From Pseudomonas sp. KU26590 (GTDB lineage Bacteria; Pseudomonadota; Gammaproteobacteria; Pseudomonadales; Pseudomonadaceae): a stretch of DNA of 64,000 nucleotides. A model generated the notes under the pieces. That model saw only the letters and a program-made list of their open reading frames with translations, was not told where the DNA came from and ran no database searches. A program made the position numbers and the translations under genes. This document shows, one piece after another, positions 3,042-27,438 of this stretch. The stretch is taken from positions 2,261,501-2,325,500 of the forward strand of contig NZ_CP110644.1 of the NCBI RefSeq assembly GCF_026153515.1, given 5' to 3'. Position 1 is the stretch's first letter, and every line of letters starts with the position of its first letter.

Positions 3042-4514
3042 ATGCGCCAAATCTGGAAGTCCTTTCGAGCGCTGTATTTTGCCTCGCTGATGATGTTGAT
3101 CGGCTCGGGCCTGCTCAGCACCTACCTTGCCTTGCGTCTGGCCGCCGATCAGGTCGATGGCCTGTGGGTCGGTGCGTTGATGGCGGCGAACTACGTCGGT
3201 CTGGCCCTGGGCGGCAAGATCGGCCACCGGTTGATCGGCCGGATCGGGCACATCCGTGCGTATGCAACCTGCGCCGGTATCGTCGGCGCCGCGGTGCTGG
3301 GCCACGGGCTGTTCGACTACCTGCCGGCGTGGATCTTCCTGCGGATGATTGTCGGCCTGGGCATGATGTGCCAGTACATGGTCATCGAGAGCTGGCTCAA
3401 CGAGCAGGCCTCGCCCAAGCAGCGCGGCACGGTGTTCAGCCTCTATATGATCGCGTCGTACCTGGGGCTGGTGCTCGGCCAGCTGATTCTGGTCATCCAC
3501 CCGCAGCTCGGCCCTGAACTGCTGATGCTCGTGGCGATGTGCTTCGCGCTCTGCCTTGTGCCTGTCGCCATGACCCGCAGCATTCACCCGGCGCCGATGC
3601 ACCCGGCCCCGCTGGAGCCGCTGTTCTTCATGCGCCGGGTGCCGCAATCCCTGACCACGGTGTTGAGCGCCGGCATGATCATCGGCTCTTTCTACGGTCT
3701 GGCGCCGCTCTATGCCGCGCAACAGGGGCTGTCCACCGAGCACGTCGGTCTGTTCATGGCCAGCTGCATCGGCGCGGGCCTTATCGTCCAAGGCCCGCTG
3801 GGCAAACTGTCGGACCGCTACGACCGCGCCTGGCTGATCCGCGGTGTAGCGGTGTTGCTGGTGCTGGCTTCGCTGCCGCTGGCGATTCTCCCCAACGTGC
3901 CCATGGAGCTGCTGCTGGCGGTGGGCTTCCTGGCCTCTCTGCTGCAGTTCTCGCTGTATCCGCTGGCCGTGGCATTCTCCAACGACCACGTCGAAGGCGA
4001 ACGCCGCGTCTCCCTGACGGCCATGCTGCTGATGACCTACGGCGTCGGCGCGAGTATCGGACCGTTGGTGTCCGGCGTGCTGATGAAGATGTTCGGCAGC
4101 AACATGCTTTATGCCTTCGTCTGCTTCGTGGCGCTGGTCCTGGTGCTGCGTATTCGTCCGAAAGCCGTCACCAACCTGCACCAGGTAGAAGACGCCCCGC
4201 TGCACCACATCGCCATGCCCGACAGCATGTCCAGCTCGCCGCTGGTGGTCGCCCTTGACCCTCGGGTTGATGAGCAGGTGGTGCAGGATCAGATGCAGGA
4301 CGTTGAGCCTGAGGTTTCGTTTGATGTCGCGCCGGATGTGGCGGCTGAGACTGACGTGCAGCCGGAGACGGTGGAGCGGGTTGTGGCGTCAGGCGAAGGC
4401 GTTGTGCGGCCGGTGGCGATAATGGATGAGGAAGTGGCTGCTGAACCTGATGCGGCTGGGTCGGAGGAAGCGGTTGAGGTGCGTCGGGATGTTGGGGTGG
4501 ATCGGCCTTTGTGA
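3042..4514 (+). CDS. MFS transporter (YcaD-like) with a long acidic C-terminal tail
   Basis: The 490-residue protein has about twelve hydrophobic segments over residues 10-380 and an MFS loop signature (GKLSDRYDRAW) between helices 8 and 9. This is typical of YcaD/UMF-type major facilitator proteins of the inner membrane. After residue about 385 comes a hydrophilic, strongly acidic tail of some 105 residues rich in D, E, V and P, predicted cytoplasmic and disordered. The substrate is unknown. The position after a GS-family gene and near flgZ matches PA3355 in P. aeruginosa. Polyamine or drug transport would fit the neighbour but is not shown. Confidence 0.8.
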   Translation: MRQIWKSFRALYFASLMMLIGSGLLSTYLALRLAADQVDGLWVGALMAANYVGLALGGKIGHRLIGRIGHIRAYATCAGIVGAAVLGHGLFDYLPAWIFLRMIVGLGMMCQYMVIESWLNEQASPKQRGTVFSLYMIASYLGLVLGQLILVIHPQLGPELLMLVAMCFALCLVPVAMTRSIHPAPMHPAPLEPLFFMRRVPQSLTTVLSAGMIIGSFYGLAPLYAAQQGLSTEHVGLFMASCIGAGLIVQGPLGKLSDRYDRAWLIRGVAVLLVLASLPLAILPNVPMELLLAVGFLASLLQFSLYPLAVAFSNDHVEGERRVSLTAMLLMTYGVGASIGPLVSGVLMKMFGSNMLYAFVCFVALVLVLRIRPKAVTNLHQVEDAPLHHIAMPDSMSSSPLVVALDPRVDEQVVQDQMQDVEPEVSFDVAPDVAAETDVQPETVERVVASGEGVVRPVAIMDEEVAAEPDAAGSEEAVEVRRDVGVDRPL

Positions 4515-23139: not shown

Positions 23140-24474
23140 ATGTCTTTCAATGTTGGTCTTAGTGGGCTCTACGCTGCAAACAAAAGTCTCGACGTCACCG
23201 GCAACAACATTGCCAACGTCGCGACCACCGGTTTCAAATCTTCCCGTGCGGAGTTTGCTGACCAGTACGCCCAATCGATTCGCGGCACGTCCGGTAGCAC
23301 CAACACCGGCAGTGGCGTCACCACCGCCGCCGTTTCTCAGCAGTTCACACAGGGCACGCTGAACACCGGCACCGGTCGCAGCCTGGACCTGGCGATCAAC
23401 GGCAACGGCTTCTTCATGATGAGCAACAACGGCGAGAAGCTCTACACCCGCGCCGGTGCATTTCACACCGACTCCGCGGGTTACATCGTCAACGAAGCGG
23501 GCAACAATCTGCAGGGCTACAGCGTTGACGGTCAGGGCAATGTCGCCACGGGCGTGCTGAGCAACCTGCGTGTCGATTCGTCGAACCTGGCGCCGAAAAG
23601 CACCAGTTTGATCACCGTCGCCTCCAACCTGAACTCTTCGTCCACCGTGCCGACGGTGTCGACCTTCTCGCCGTCGGACACCAGCAGCTACACCACGACC
23701 TACAGCACGCCGCTGTACGACAGTCAGGGTAACGAACACACCCTCGACCAGTATTTTTCGAAGACGGGCACCAATACCTGGACGATGTACAGCCTGGTCG
23801 ATGGCCGCAGCATCAGCGATCCAACGTCCACTACCGCTGACGCGACCGCAGTGACCTTCGATTCGTCGGGTGGCTTGATCACCAGCGGCACCGGCTCCCC
23901 TGATACCACCAATTCGCCAAACGTGAGCGTGGGTACGGACGGTATCTTCTCCATCAACAACTGGGTGCCCGCCGCCAAGACTACCGTTGGCAGCACCACT
24001 ACCTGGGCGAGCAACGGCGCGGCCGCGAATGCGGGCGGGATCAAGCTCAACATGCTGGCGACCACCCAGACTAACGCGGTGTCGGGTGCAATCACCAAGA
24101 CCCAGGACGGTTACGCCACCGGCCAGATCACAGCGATGAACATCGACGCCACTGGCAACATGTTCGCGACCTACACCAACGGTCAGTCCAAGGTCATCGG
24201 TCAGGTGTCGCTGACCAACTTCGCCAACGTTCAGGGCCTGTCCCCGGCGGGCGGCACCAACTGGCGTGAATCGGCTTCGTCGGGCATCCCGGTTACGGGC
24301 GCTCCGCAGTCGGGTACGCTGGGTTACTTGACCGGGCAGGCGCTGGAAGAATCCAACGTCGACCTGACCGGCGAGCTGGTCAACCTGATCAAGGCGCAGA
24401 GTAACTACCAGGCGAACGCCAAGACCATTTCGACGCAGAGCACCATCATGCAGACCATCATTCAGATGACCTGA
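23140..24474 (+). CDS. flgE: FlgE, flagellar hook protein
   Basis: The 444-residue protein begins with the axial motif ([21 protein letters not shown]) and ends with [20 protein letters not shown]. In between is one FlgE D2-type variable domain (about residues 175-300, with [14 protein letters not shown] and DPTST). Polymerised FlgE makes the universal joint outside the cell. A terminator follows, so the next hook-like gene is separate. Confidence 0.96.
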
Positions 24475-24500
24475 TCACGGTCGATGGGTACGCTTGATCA

Positions 24501-24526
24501 AGCCCCTCTCGGAGGGGCTTTTTTTT
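24501..24526 (+). terminator. Rho-independent terminator after flgE
   Basis: Perfect 8-bp stem AGCCCCTC / GAGGGGCT with loop TCG, then eight Ts. It ends the flgBCDE transcript. Confidence 0.92.
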
Positions 24527-24730
24527 GCCTTTTTTTCGGGATGAAATATCGAGAGCCGTCCCACTCTACAACTGGAAACTTCCTACTTTCGTCTTTGCGA
24601 GAATCAAGTTCGCTGACAAATAAATGCCATTGAGCGGCGTCGTTCATGACGTCCGTTCGATCGCATTCCTTTGCCCGCGATCTCGATGCATTGACGAGCT
24701 TGTCGTTGAACAACGACTCAGGGAGTGTTC

Positions 24731-26467
24731 ATGTCATTCAACACAGCGGTTTCAGGTTTGCACGCGGCGCACAAGCGCATGGAAGTGGCCGGCAACAACA
24801 TCGCCAACGTCCACACGTCCGGTTTCAAATCCTCTCGCGCCGAGTTCTCGGCGCTCTATTCGTCCTCCATGCTCGGCGGCAGCCGCACGGCCGCAGGTGA
24901 TGGGGTGCAAGTGGCCAACGTCTCGCAGAATTTCGCGCCCGGCGGGGTCATCACCAGCGAGGGCAGGGCGCTCGACATGCGCATTCAGGGCAATGGATTT
25001 TTTGTCATGAGTGACGCCGGTTCCATCAGTTACGGCCGGTCAGGGGCCTTCATCAAAGATGCACAGAATTTCGTCGTCGACGCCCACGGCAGTCGCTTGC
25101 AGGGTTATGGGATTACCGACGACGGGAAAGTGATCAGCGGCGTTCGCACGGATTTGAAGATTGACTCCGCCGGCATGTCGCCCAAAGCCACCGGCAAGAT
25201 GGAGCAGACCCTCAACCTGAATGCGGGGTCGACGTCACTCGGCGCTCTTCCGCGCTTCGACCCTGGCGACCCGACCACCTACACCCGGGTGACGGGGAGG
25301 GTGATTCAGGACGCTGGCACTCCGCCGCAGGATCATGAGCTCAAGCAGTATTTCGTCAAGACCGACGACAATAACTGGACGTCTTACATACTCATCGACG
25401 GTGTGAATCCGTTGGACCCGACCAGCACCGCGCCACTGGAGATCGGCTTGCAGGTGTCTGCTGCCGGCAGGCTTTCGCTCACCGGCTCGGCAGCAGCGGT
25501 GAAGATGATTTCCGACACCGAGTTGGCGTTGCAGAACTGGCGCCCGGCGGTCAAGGTTAACGGCAACTGGACAGCAAGCCCCGTGCCCGCCCCGGGACCG
25601 ATCTCACTGCCGCTGCTGGACGGTGGCCTGCCAGCGCTCGATCCGACCGATCCGCTCTTGCCGCGGCCGGTGCCGACTTTCAATCCGTCGGACCTCACCA
25701 CCTTCACCAAGGCGTCCACCTTTGGGGTGTTCGACAGCCTCGGCATGCGCCACGAGATGACCCAGTACTTCCTCAAGGACGGCAGCAACAGCTGGAAGAT
25801 GCACACGCTGATTGACGGGCGCAACCCGCAGGACCCGACCAGCACGGCGCCGTCGACGGCCAGCATGCTGTTTGACTCCAGCGGCTCGTTGCAATCACTG
25901 ATTGGTAGCCAATGGCTGACCGCCGCCAACAAAACCCTGACCCTGAGCGGCTGGGTGCCCGCCAAACCGCTGGACGGCAACAAACCGGGCGGGCGCTGGG
26001 GTGCGAATGGCGCCGTGGGAAATGCTAACGGCATTGTCATGGACTTTAACAAGATCAGTCAGCACAACGCCGCCACCGGCAGCAGCAACGTTGTCATCGA
26101 CGGGCACGCGGCAGGGCAGGCCACTCAGTTGACCATCGACAAAAGCGGCATGCTGATGATCGGGTTCAGCAATGGCGAGCATCGTAACGTCGGCCAGGTC
26201 ATGCTCGCCAGCTTCGCCAACAATCAAGGGCTGCGGCCGGTCAGCGACACGCGCTGGGTCGAAACCCTGGCCTCGGGCGTCGCCAATTACGACACGCCGG
26301 GTGTCGGCACCTTGGGCAGCGTCATCGGGCACTCGCTGGAGGGCTCCAATGTCAAGCTGACCAATGAACTGGTGGAGCTGATCCAGGCGCAGACGGCCTA
26401 TCAGGCCAACTCTAAAACCTTGTCGACGGAGGCGGAACTGATGCAGACGTTGATACGCGCGACTTGA
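24731..26467 (+). CDS. Second hook-like protein with duplicated FlgE variable domain
   Basis: The 578-residue protein (start at the ATG after AGGGAG; an in-frame GTG lies two codons earlier) has the complete axial ends of a hook protein: [21 protein letters not shown] and LVELIQAQTAYQANSKTLST. Unlike FlgE, it carries two FlgE D2-type domains in tandem. Copy 1 is about residues 176-272 and copy 2 about 317-410, each with the pattern F-P-D-TT-T, then L/M-QYF-K, then W, then LIDG-NP-DPTSTAP. A proline-rich linker of about 35 residues joins them. It sits between the flgE terminator and flgF, where P. aeruginosa has no gene. I see no sigma-54 or sigma-28 promoter directly upstream, so its expression is unclear. 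It could be a minor hook subunit, an alternative hook, or a relict. Confidence 0.85.
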   Translation: MSFNTAVSGLHAAHKRMEVAGNNIANVHTSGFKSSRAEFSALYSSSMLGGSRTAAGDGVQVANVSQNFAPGGVITSEGRALDMRIQGNGFFVMSDAGSISYGRSGAFIKDAQNFVVDAHGSRLQGYGITDDGKVISGVRTDLKIDSAGMSPKATGKMEQTLNLNAGSTSLGALPRFDPGDPTTYTRVTGRVIQDAGTPPQDHELKQYFVKTDDNNWTSYILIDGVNPLDPTSTAPLEIGLQVSAAGRLSLTGSAAAVKMISDTELALQNWRPAVKVNGNWTASPVPAPGPISLPLLDGGLPALDPTDPLLPRPVPTFNPSDLTTFTKASTFGVFDSLGMRHEMTQYFLKDGSNSWKMHTLIDGRNPQDPTSTAPSTASMLFDSSGSLQSLIGSQWLTAANKTLTLSGWVPAKPLDGNKPGGRWGANGAVGNANGIVMDFNKISQHNAATGSSNVVIDGHAAGQATQLTIDKSGMLMIGFSNGEHRNVGQVMLASFANNQGLRPVSDTRWVETLASGVANYDTPGVGTLGSVIGHSLEGSNVKLTNELVELIQAQTAYQANSKTLSTEAELMQTLIRAT

Positions 26468-26490: not shown

Positions 26491-27186
26491 TGTGGAACCG
26501 GCTTCAGCCGGGAAGGCGGCGTGTCAGGCGACTGTCTCGTCACAGGCACACCGCCTTCGCGGGCAAGCGCGCTCCTACAGTGGGTGGGCGTTGGATCGGG
26601 AAATCGCGGTGGCACACCAATCGGTTTGTGGCGAACGCAAAGGCATAGGCACACGCAAAACCTGTAGGAGCGTGGCTTGTCCCGCGATCGGCTGCGAAGC
26701 AGTCGTTAAACCTCGCGGCGCCGTGCTTGCTGACACACCGCATTCATCGGGTCTACTGCCGCTGCGCGCCAGATCGCGGGACAAGCCACGCTCCTACAGT
26801 GGATCGGCGTGGGCCGGGATCTCACCATCATGCACAGAACCTGTAGGCGTCAGCTTGCTGGCGAAGGCGGCGTGTCAGGCGACTGTCTCGTCACAGGCAC
26901 ACCGCCTTCGCGGGCAAGCGCGCTCCTACAGTGGGTCGGCGTTGGATCGGGAAATCGCGGTGGTACACCAATCGGTATGTGGCGAACGCAAAGGCATAGG
27001 CACACGCAAAATCTGTAGGAGCGTGGCTTGTCCCGCGATCGGCTGCGAAGCAGTCGTTAAACCTCGCGGCGCCGTGCTTGCTGACACACCGCATTCATCG
27101 GGTCTACTGCCGCTGCGCGCCAGATCGCGGGGCAAGCCACGCTCCTACAGTGGATCGGCGTGGGCCGGGATTTCAGGGTGATACAC
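26491..27186 (+). repeat. REP array containing a 351-bp tandem duplication
   Basis: The unit starting at 26513 (GGCGGCGTGTCAGGCGACTG) recurs at 26864, a period of 351 bases, with only scattered differences over about 320 bases. Each unit holds two REP doublets of different type. One has CCTTCGCGGGCAAGCGCGCT; the other has GTAGGAGCGTGGCTTGTCCC and its inverse around a conserved spacer. The array fills the gap between the second hook-like gene and the small minus-strand ORF at 27259. The frames across it are repeat-derived and not counted as genes. Confidence 0.88.
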
Positions 27187-27258
27187 AGAACCTGTGGGAG
27201 TCAGCTTGCTGACGAATGCGGGGTGTCATGCGATCAAGCTACAGCAGATCGAAACAAC

Positions 27259-27438
27259 TTAAATCGAACAATCCGACTTCACATACGCCGCGCTGATCCG
27301 TGTCCAGCCTTTGCCCGGACTGAGCTGGGCGCAGACCGTGCGGTGGGCGCCTTGCCAGAGGAAATAGGGCGCCGGCGCCGCCCATGCGGCAAACGAGCAG
27401 GCAATCAGTGTAAGGAGCAGGGCGGTGCGCAGACCCAT
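27259..27438 (-). CDS. Small putative secreted protein, conserved-hypothetical type
   Basis: From the ATG at 27438 the frame gives 59 residues. These comprise a clear signal peptide (hydrophobic residues 5-18, cleavage after AWA-A or so) and a mature part of about 40 residues with PYFLWQ, TVCAQLSPGKGW and a C-terminal Cys, so two cysteines could form a disulfide. The ribosome site is weak. It lies alone, antisense to its neighbours, between the REP array and the flgF promoter. Small exported proteins of this look are common in Pseudomonas but have no known function. Confidence 0.5.
   Translation of the reverse strand: MGLRTALLLTLIACSFAAWAAPAPYFLWQGAHRTVCAQLSPGKGWTRISAAYVKSDCSI

Follow-up and report, generated by a model that had tools for sequence, protein, structure and literature searches.

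Textbooks present the flagellar hook as a universal joint, and it is generally depicted as a homopolymer made from a single protein. The window analysed here, a stretch of 64,000 nucleotides from Pseudomonas sp. KU26590, holds a second, longer hook-like gene next to flgE, designated flgE2. The locus raises the question of whether flgE2 encodes a working second hook subunit, an exported protein with some other task, or a relic.

Organisation of the flgE2 locus

The flagellar genes of the window are ordered flgB-C-D-E-flgE2-F-G-H-I, and the features of flgE2 and its surroundings are collected in Table 1. The flgE2 frame opens with ATG at 24731, just 3' of a Shine-Dalgarno-like AGGGAG, and its stop codon ends at 26467. 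Base composition is equal in the two hook-type genes, with GC and GC3 values of 0.619 and 0.807 for flgE2 versus 0.603 and 0.809 for flgE.

Table 1. Coordinates of flgE2, its domains, its leader and the preceding flgE gene in the window.
Feature	Position	Strand	Evidence
flgE, ordinary hook gene, 444 aa, one FlgE_D2 stretch	23140..24474	+	NF004238, 514 bits, cut-off 400
Intrinsic terminator after flgE	24500..24526	+	9-pair stem 24500-24520, then T run
Upstream half-site TCCCAC, 22 bp before matching part of TTCCTAC	24559..24564	+	20 aligned leaders
Conserved leader element RGAAANTTCCTAC-N9-TGYGAGAMT, 31 bp, probable promoter/operator of flgE2	24574..24604	+	20 leaders
flgE2, second hook-like gene, 578 aa, two D2	24731..26467	+	NCBIfam and Pfam matches
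N-terminal D0/D1 half, L-stretch intact (T29, G31, K33, F39)	24731..25180	+	Pfam and alignment
D2 copy 1 (D2a), residues 161-282	25211..25576	+	D2 HMM
Proline-rich linker, residues ~283-312	25577..25666	+	Translation, D2 HMM
D2 copy 2 (D2b), residues 313-451	25667..26083	+	D2 HMM
C-terminal D1/D0 half	26114..26464	+	Flg_bbr_C at residues 535-576

Against the NCBIfam FlgE equivalog NF004238, FlgE2 scored 460.7 bits, above the cut-off of 400, and the Pfam scan returned Flg_bb_rod, D1, FlgE_D2 (twice) and Flg_bbr_C in that order, all above cut-off. The N-terminus is similar to that of FlgE. All four L-stretch residues listed in Table 1 are invariant in an alignment of 54 rows, as is characteristic of a hook protein; the conserved L-stretch residues of Campylobacter jejuni FlgE are given as Thr30, Gly32, Lys34 and Phe40 (PMC5097172). 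An earlier reading of the window from its letters alone (the sequence-only reading) had described a full-length hook paralogue with intact conserved ends, sited after the flgE terminator and before flgF. Its coordinates were right, the matches to Flg_bb_rod, D1 and Flg_bbr_C bear out the intact ends, and the window and the surveyed flgE-flgF intervals agree on the site.

Much of the interval between flgE2 and flgF (26500-27200) is occupied by two near-identical stretches of approximately 300 bp with short REP-like sequences, as recognised by eye. Between the two genes the minus strand also encodes a small protein of 59 amino acids with a signal-peptide-like start (27259-27438). By tblastn this protein is present in 43 of 64 flagellar loci, both where flgE2 occurs and where it does not.

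Duplication of the D2 domain

The D2 copies were placed with an HMM built from single-D2 Pseudomonas FlgE. Pfam FlgE_D2 matched two stretches in FlgE2 and one in the FlgE of the window; scanned singly, both copies exceeded the curated cut-off of 22.7 bits, copy 1 with 39.3 (E 1.1e-9) and copy 2 with 90.7 (E 1.6e-25). Each copy is thus found separately, and the outcome that the sequence-only reading had named as refuting, a single D2 by profile, did not arise. The two align with 43% identity over 102 positions at a local score of 178, versus a mean of 30.6 (sd 5.6) and a maximum of 67 in 1000 shuffles. Among the best 120 protein relatives, 114 have two D2 domains and the other six, of about 740 amino acids, have three. 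The doubled outer domain had been anticipated at about residues 176-272 and 317-410, close to the limits given by the HMM, and the proline-rich linker and the QYF, LIDG and DPTSTAP landmarks described with it are present. The check proposed at the time, by profile and structure prediction, likewise yielded two D2 domains by both Pfam and HMM, both of them modelled.

AlphaFold modelled both copies, of which copy 1 alone best matches the D2 of Pseudomonas aeruginosa FlgE (PDB 9wx3). The full-length model matches 9wx3 over residues 150..461 with 168 residues aligned, so that most of D2a must be skipped in the match. The model, in which the D0/D1 part is of low confidence and the whole-model pTM is only 0.52, suggests that the extra D2 may be inserted after the first D2 strand in the manner of a D3 domain, rather than simply placed beside D2.

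Distribution and integrity of flgE2

A survey of 298 genomes of the genus gave a FlgE-type match in 296 and a long match in 23 (best E <= 2e-116; next best 5e-74). Twenty of these 23 hold the long gene in addition to a normal flgE, while three (G157, G226 and G081) hold the long gene alone. The gene lies between flgE and flgF in 19 of the 20 survey loci; in the exception, G066, flgE is on another contig.

The flgE2 clade was defined as the 23 genomes whose FlgE is at least 67% identical to that of the window. Twenty of them carry flgE2, 18 as one open frame. The gene has an internal stop in G126, its frame is disrupted near residues 48-70 in G191, only remnants are left in G026 and G115, and a search of the clade genomes found no trace of it in G018. 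flgE2 is dispensable, since these five genomes have no intact gene. Decay in relatives had been named beforehand as part of what would refute the sequence-only reading. It is evident in these five genomes; in the remaining 18 the gene is a single open frame, and dN/dS was 0.09-0.20 in eight pairs.

A further set of 36 named loci from GTDB genomes, all Pseudomonas, came from a scan by two peptide patterns and therefore forms no census; 13 of the 36 overlap the survey genomes and are not independent of the survey. The carriers are P. graminis, P. petrae, P. abietaniphila, P. viridiflava, P. avellanae, P. syringae, P. amygdali, P. cerasi, P. tremae, P. caricapapayae, P. folii, P. ovata and P. maioricensis, together with one genome labelled P. 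putida and some species without a name. By name, the carriers fall into the P. syringae/P. graminis group. Two D2 domains in a single full-length flgE2 frame are seen in 34 of the 36 loci, or 35 if the N-terminally short L099 (P. cerasi) is counted; the broken exception is L114.

In L114 (P. graminis PDD-13b-3, 3986-4510) D2 copy 1 and the linker (approximately residues 155-331) are inverted in place, with clean junctions relative to L095, and the reading frame consequently ends after 157 amino acids. Inverted repeats at the segment ends in the intact L095 were no better than at random gene places (197 of 200 controls were as good), none of the other 60 loci scanned was inverted, and a plasmid search for an invertible copy 1 found nothing. 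An invertible copy-1 switch is accordingly not claimed; the inversion in L114 may be a single event or a rare switch.

The leader of flgE2

A terminator-like hairpin precedes flgE2 in 19 of 20 leaders, the exception being the contig-end leader of G066 that lacks flgE. Apart from the 31-bp element of Table 1 the leaders are poorly alignable. The element, RGAAANTTCCTAC-N9-TGYGAGAMT, is present at fixed spacing in 20/20 leaders, with 0-1 mismatch in 17 and three mismatches in G194, G181 and G149, scored on the same leaders from which the consensus was drawn. In the TCCCAC half-site further upstream, the consensus letter of each successive column is shared by 19 (T), 20 (C), 14 (C), 15 (C), 11 (A) and 20 (C) of the 20 leaders. 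The element also occurs in all the named loci but L094, which is truncated by its contig end (35 of 36).

Scanning 12 genomes with up to three mismatches returned a single site in each of six intact carriers and two sites in G026, both with three mismatches and one of them beside the flgE2 remnant. The same scan found none in G018, G115, G258, G288 or G286, and a reversed control gave zero matches. When two genomes were scanned with a looser form, TTCCYAC-N9-TGYGAGAMT with two mismatches, each had fewer matches to it than to the reversed control, and for that reason no regulon is claimed. Further TTCCTAC sites were seen in the carrier G094 (L165, L166), one pair in L165 being spaced 22 bp apart as in the flgE2 leader; the regulator of flgE2 may therefore have a few other targets. 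The element may resemble heptads of the BvgA/EvgA type. A literature search for GGAAATTTCC gave nothing relevant as judged by titles and the beginnings of abstracts.

The flgB leaders have a perfect sigma-54 -24/-12 box in 18 of 19 cases and one mismatch in the other. In the flgE2 leaders the best sigma-54 matches had three mismatches, save for a match with two in G191 that lies inside displaced coding sequence; the best sigma-28 matches had 4 to 7 mismatches of 16 fixed positions, none convincing, and a scan for sigma-70 sites found none. The sequence-only reading was therefore correct in seeing neither a sigma-54 nor a sigma-28 motif here, and had overlooked the conserved 31-bp element. Pseudomonas flgE is assigned to class III (PMC8036289). 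Judged from sequence, by the hairpin in 19/20 leaders and the lack of a box, flgE2 would not be expressed with the sigma-54 hook operon. The terminator after flgE and the dedicated conserved element indicate that flgE2 is its own transcription unit, with the element probably acting as a promoter with an activator site.

Selection on flgE2

By simple Nei-Gojobori counting, in which pairs overlap or share species and several dS values are near or above 1, whole-gene dN/dS was 0.09-0.20 for flgE2 (eight pairs) versus 0.07-0.29 for flgE (seven pairs). Copy 1 of flgE2 gave 0.09-0.23, and all regions, both D2 copies included, gave 0.03-0.24. By these ratios flgE2 is under purifying selection. An alignment of 60 FlgE has 111 columns with at least 95% invariance; in 78 of these, at least 90% of 17 FlgE2 retain the residue. 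Several of the remainder are uniformly replaced in FlgE2, such as residue 41, where D is A in 17/17; uniform replacement of this kind looks like specialisation rather than decay.

Ancestry of the two hook genes

In a tree of the conserved ends, FlgE2 forms one clade (100/100) on a stem branch of 0.49, which joins 21 FlgE of other Pseudomonas (100/100, stem 0.32), including two of the sole doubled ones. The FlgE of flgE2 carriers joins a different set. Recent tandem duplication of flgE, under which FlgE2 should group with the FlgE encoded in the same genomes, was rejected with 60 FlgE and an outgroup (AU p 0.0018) and again with fewer FlgE (AU p 7e-5); these p-values are somewhat optimistic because the test was chosen after the first tree had been seen. 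A position of FlgE2 outside all Pseudomonas FlgE was not rejected (AU p 0.076). In a species-proxy tree of FlgC/F/G/H/I (48 genomes, quick method), carriers and losers of flgE2 fall together and the owners of both FlgE types are mixed elsewhere. Most simply, these trees would reflect two old hook lineages that were lost differentially; transfer of a hook gene between lineages may also have played a part. The evidence that flgE2 represents an old lineage grouping with the hook proteins of other Pseudomonas, and not a recent copy of its neighbour, is good but not final, owing to the long branches (0.49 for the FlgE2 stem).

Pseudomonas FlgE itself falls into two deep lineages (L036-L079, L124-L142), discordant with the tree of the flg genes nearby. 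This pattern points to an old duplication followed by differential loss, or to hook-gene exchange.

The three genomes with the long gene alone, all drafts, have no FlgE match besides the doubled-D2 FlgE. In G226 and G081 its gene is flanked directly by flgD and flgF, and in G157 it comes after flgD near a contig end. The doubled shape thus seems compatible with a working hook, as a matter of feasibility only. In a tree of D2 copies, copy 1 of the three sole hooks groups with FlgE2 copy 1 (100/100). Identity between the two copies of these sole hooks is 62%, and their identity with FlgE2 copy 1 is only 42-49%, which speaks for independent duplication; AU tests rejected neither a single nor an independent origin (p 0.23, 0.24).

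Searches for doubled D2 beyond the genus matched 71/369 genomes of the class (own genome included) and 25/398 of the phylum (own genome and other Pseudomonas included), using a profile that leans to Pseudomonas, so that these counts do not give rarity elsewhere. Seven loci from the class search besides our own (L117-L123) were examined and FlgE frames were recovered from three. One of these, L119 of G413 from another gammaproteobacterial family, encodes a FlgE of 757 amino acids with three D2 domains by HMM (i-E 5.6e-18, 5e-8 and 1.5e-22); as this protein is only a distant relative, D2 copying has probably happened more than once. A FlgE of 531 amino acids from another genus of the family (G459; L143/L117) has a D2 HMM match split into 160-204 and 254-403, as though this D2 had received an insertion at a comparable position, behind its first strand.

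Published data on the flgE-flgF interval

Among the matches listed from open-licence full texts there was no work on flgE2, on another hook protein of Pseudomonas beside FlgE, or on a duplicated D2, nor, in the excerpts of these, any FlgE2 protein, hook preparation or deletion mutant. Hook paralogues and extra hook domains are already known; a hook gene enlarged by its own D2, beside flgE and under its own element, was not among the matches listed.

Locus numbers in published work suggest the presence of flgE2 in P. syringae. In P. syringae B728a flgE is Psyr_3478 and flgF Psyr_3476, with one number between (PMC3329529), and in pv. actinidiae the genes are IYO_RS09875 and IYO_RS09885 (PMC9823363). 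In pv. phaseolicola two genes by numbering, PSPPH_3403 and PSPPH_3404, stand between flgE (PSPPH_3405) and flgF; both were treated as an operon with flgF, RhpR binds within PSPPH_3403, and mRNA of both was higher in a delta-rhpS strain (PMC9600179). From this numbering PSPPH_3404 (or PSPPH_3403), Psyr_3477 and IYO_RS09880 would be flgE2. Insertion mutants in PSPPH_3405 were picked for reduced swarming (PMC4556710), and FlgE2 is thus no simple stand-in for FlgE there, if those strains carry flgE2.

Proposed role of FlgE2

Most likely FlgE2 would serve as a separately controlled subunit of the hook, either a minor one or an alternative to FlgE, and a minor or conditional hook component, as already proposed in the sequence-only reading, remains the leading interpretation. 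The chances seem about even that flgE2 encodes a working second hook subunit with its own promoter, from an old lineage kept beside flgE. The protein combines the D0/D1 core and L-stretch of FlgE with a D2 carrying a second D2 copy, which in the model would stand outside D2 as a D3-like layer. With the leader element serving as a promoter active at some times, FlgE2 would then be exported by the flagellar export apparatus, as is FlgE, and either join the growing hook or form the whole hook in some cells or conditions. A universal joint containing FlgE2 would be thicker and probably stiffer. Going by its conserved ends, FlgE2 belongs with an old hook lineage that provides many other Pseudomonas with their sole hook protein; in the P. 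syringae/P. graminis clade its gene was retained alongside a second one for the hook.

A different task for the exported protein, for instance as a surface-exposed or released protein and no brick of the hook, is unlikely, yet has some precedent: C. jejuni Cj0043 also encodes a hook protein, and the hook there consists only of the Cj1729c product (PMC5069557). The FlgE2-specific replacements in D0 and the C-terminal helix, uniform in 17 FlgE2, and the control of flgE2 apart from the sigma-54 hook operon would fit such a task. A released protein, however, would not need the conserved D0/D1 and L-stretch, and in three genomes no hook gene was found other than one for a doubled-D2 protein.

It is rather improbable that flgE2 is a relic on its way out, a remnant of the old hook lineage that does little or nothing and survives for now in part of the clade. 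The broken or missing genes of five clade genomes, the inverted segment of L114 and the long stem branch of FlgE2 speak for a relic, but dN/dS is low throughout the gene and in each D2 copy, one open frame is kept in 18 of 23 clade genomes, and the 31-bp element is conserved while the rest of the leader is poorly alignable. Chance resemblance or assembly error as the source of the two D2 copies can be dismissed almost entirely, each copy exceeding the Pfam cut-off alone, the best relatives and named loci sharing the architecture across many assemblies and two structure models, and nothing having been found in its favour.

More tentatively than the reading of FlgE2 as a second hook subunit, some Pseudomonas may alter hook mechanics by switching on FlgE2 through the dedicated promoter, the ancient lineage having grown its outer layer by D2 copying (one to three copies) so that hooks or hook segments differ in thickness and stiffness within one species. 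If this is true, hook composition and stiffness would be a regulated trait in a widely studied plant-associated clade. With its second hook gene, the clade may possess a universal joint in reserve or an alternative one for its flagellum, and proteins with one, two and three D2 domains offer a natural series for testing the role of the outer layer. The pair also bears on flgE mutant phenotypes in P. syringae, public records often labelling both genes 'flagellar hook protein FlgE'.

Comparison with known hook and filament proteins

Relative to Pseudomonas FlgE, as represented by the P. aeruginosa D2 of PDB 9wx3, FlgE2 differs by one more D2; flgE belongs to the sigma-54 hook operon, whereas flgE2 is a second gene beside it with its own leader element. 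Extra outer domains are known in C. jejuni FlgE (D3 and D4), where they give a sturdier hook (PMC5097172), and in Caulobacter FlgE (D3), where the hook is wider (PMC5069557). The extra domain there lies within D2 and stands further out, as the model suggests for the second copy in FlgE2. The inserted domains of C. jejuni and Caulobacter are of other folds (PMC5069557), whereas the FlgE2 insert is a copy of D2 itself and not a domain with a non-D2 fold; also unlike those insertions, relatives of FlgE2 have one, two or three D2 copies.

Two hook-type genes per genome are likewise present in C. jejuni (Cj0043 and Cj1729c), with a hook built from only one product (PMC5069557), and Helicobacter pylori also has a second hook-type gene (FlgE2, PDB 5npy). 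In contrast to the Campylobacter and Helicobacter pairs, that of Pseudomonas is adjacent, belongs to another bacterial class, and has a long second gene with a duplicated D2. Giant flagellins, in the description of which the term 'domain duplication' occurs, have enlarged outer domains (PMC6248924) and so offer another case of an enlarged flagellar axial protein; they form the filament and belong to another protein family, whereas FlgE2 is a hook-type protein.
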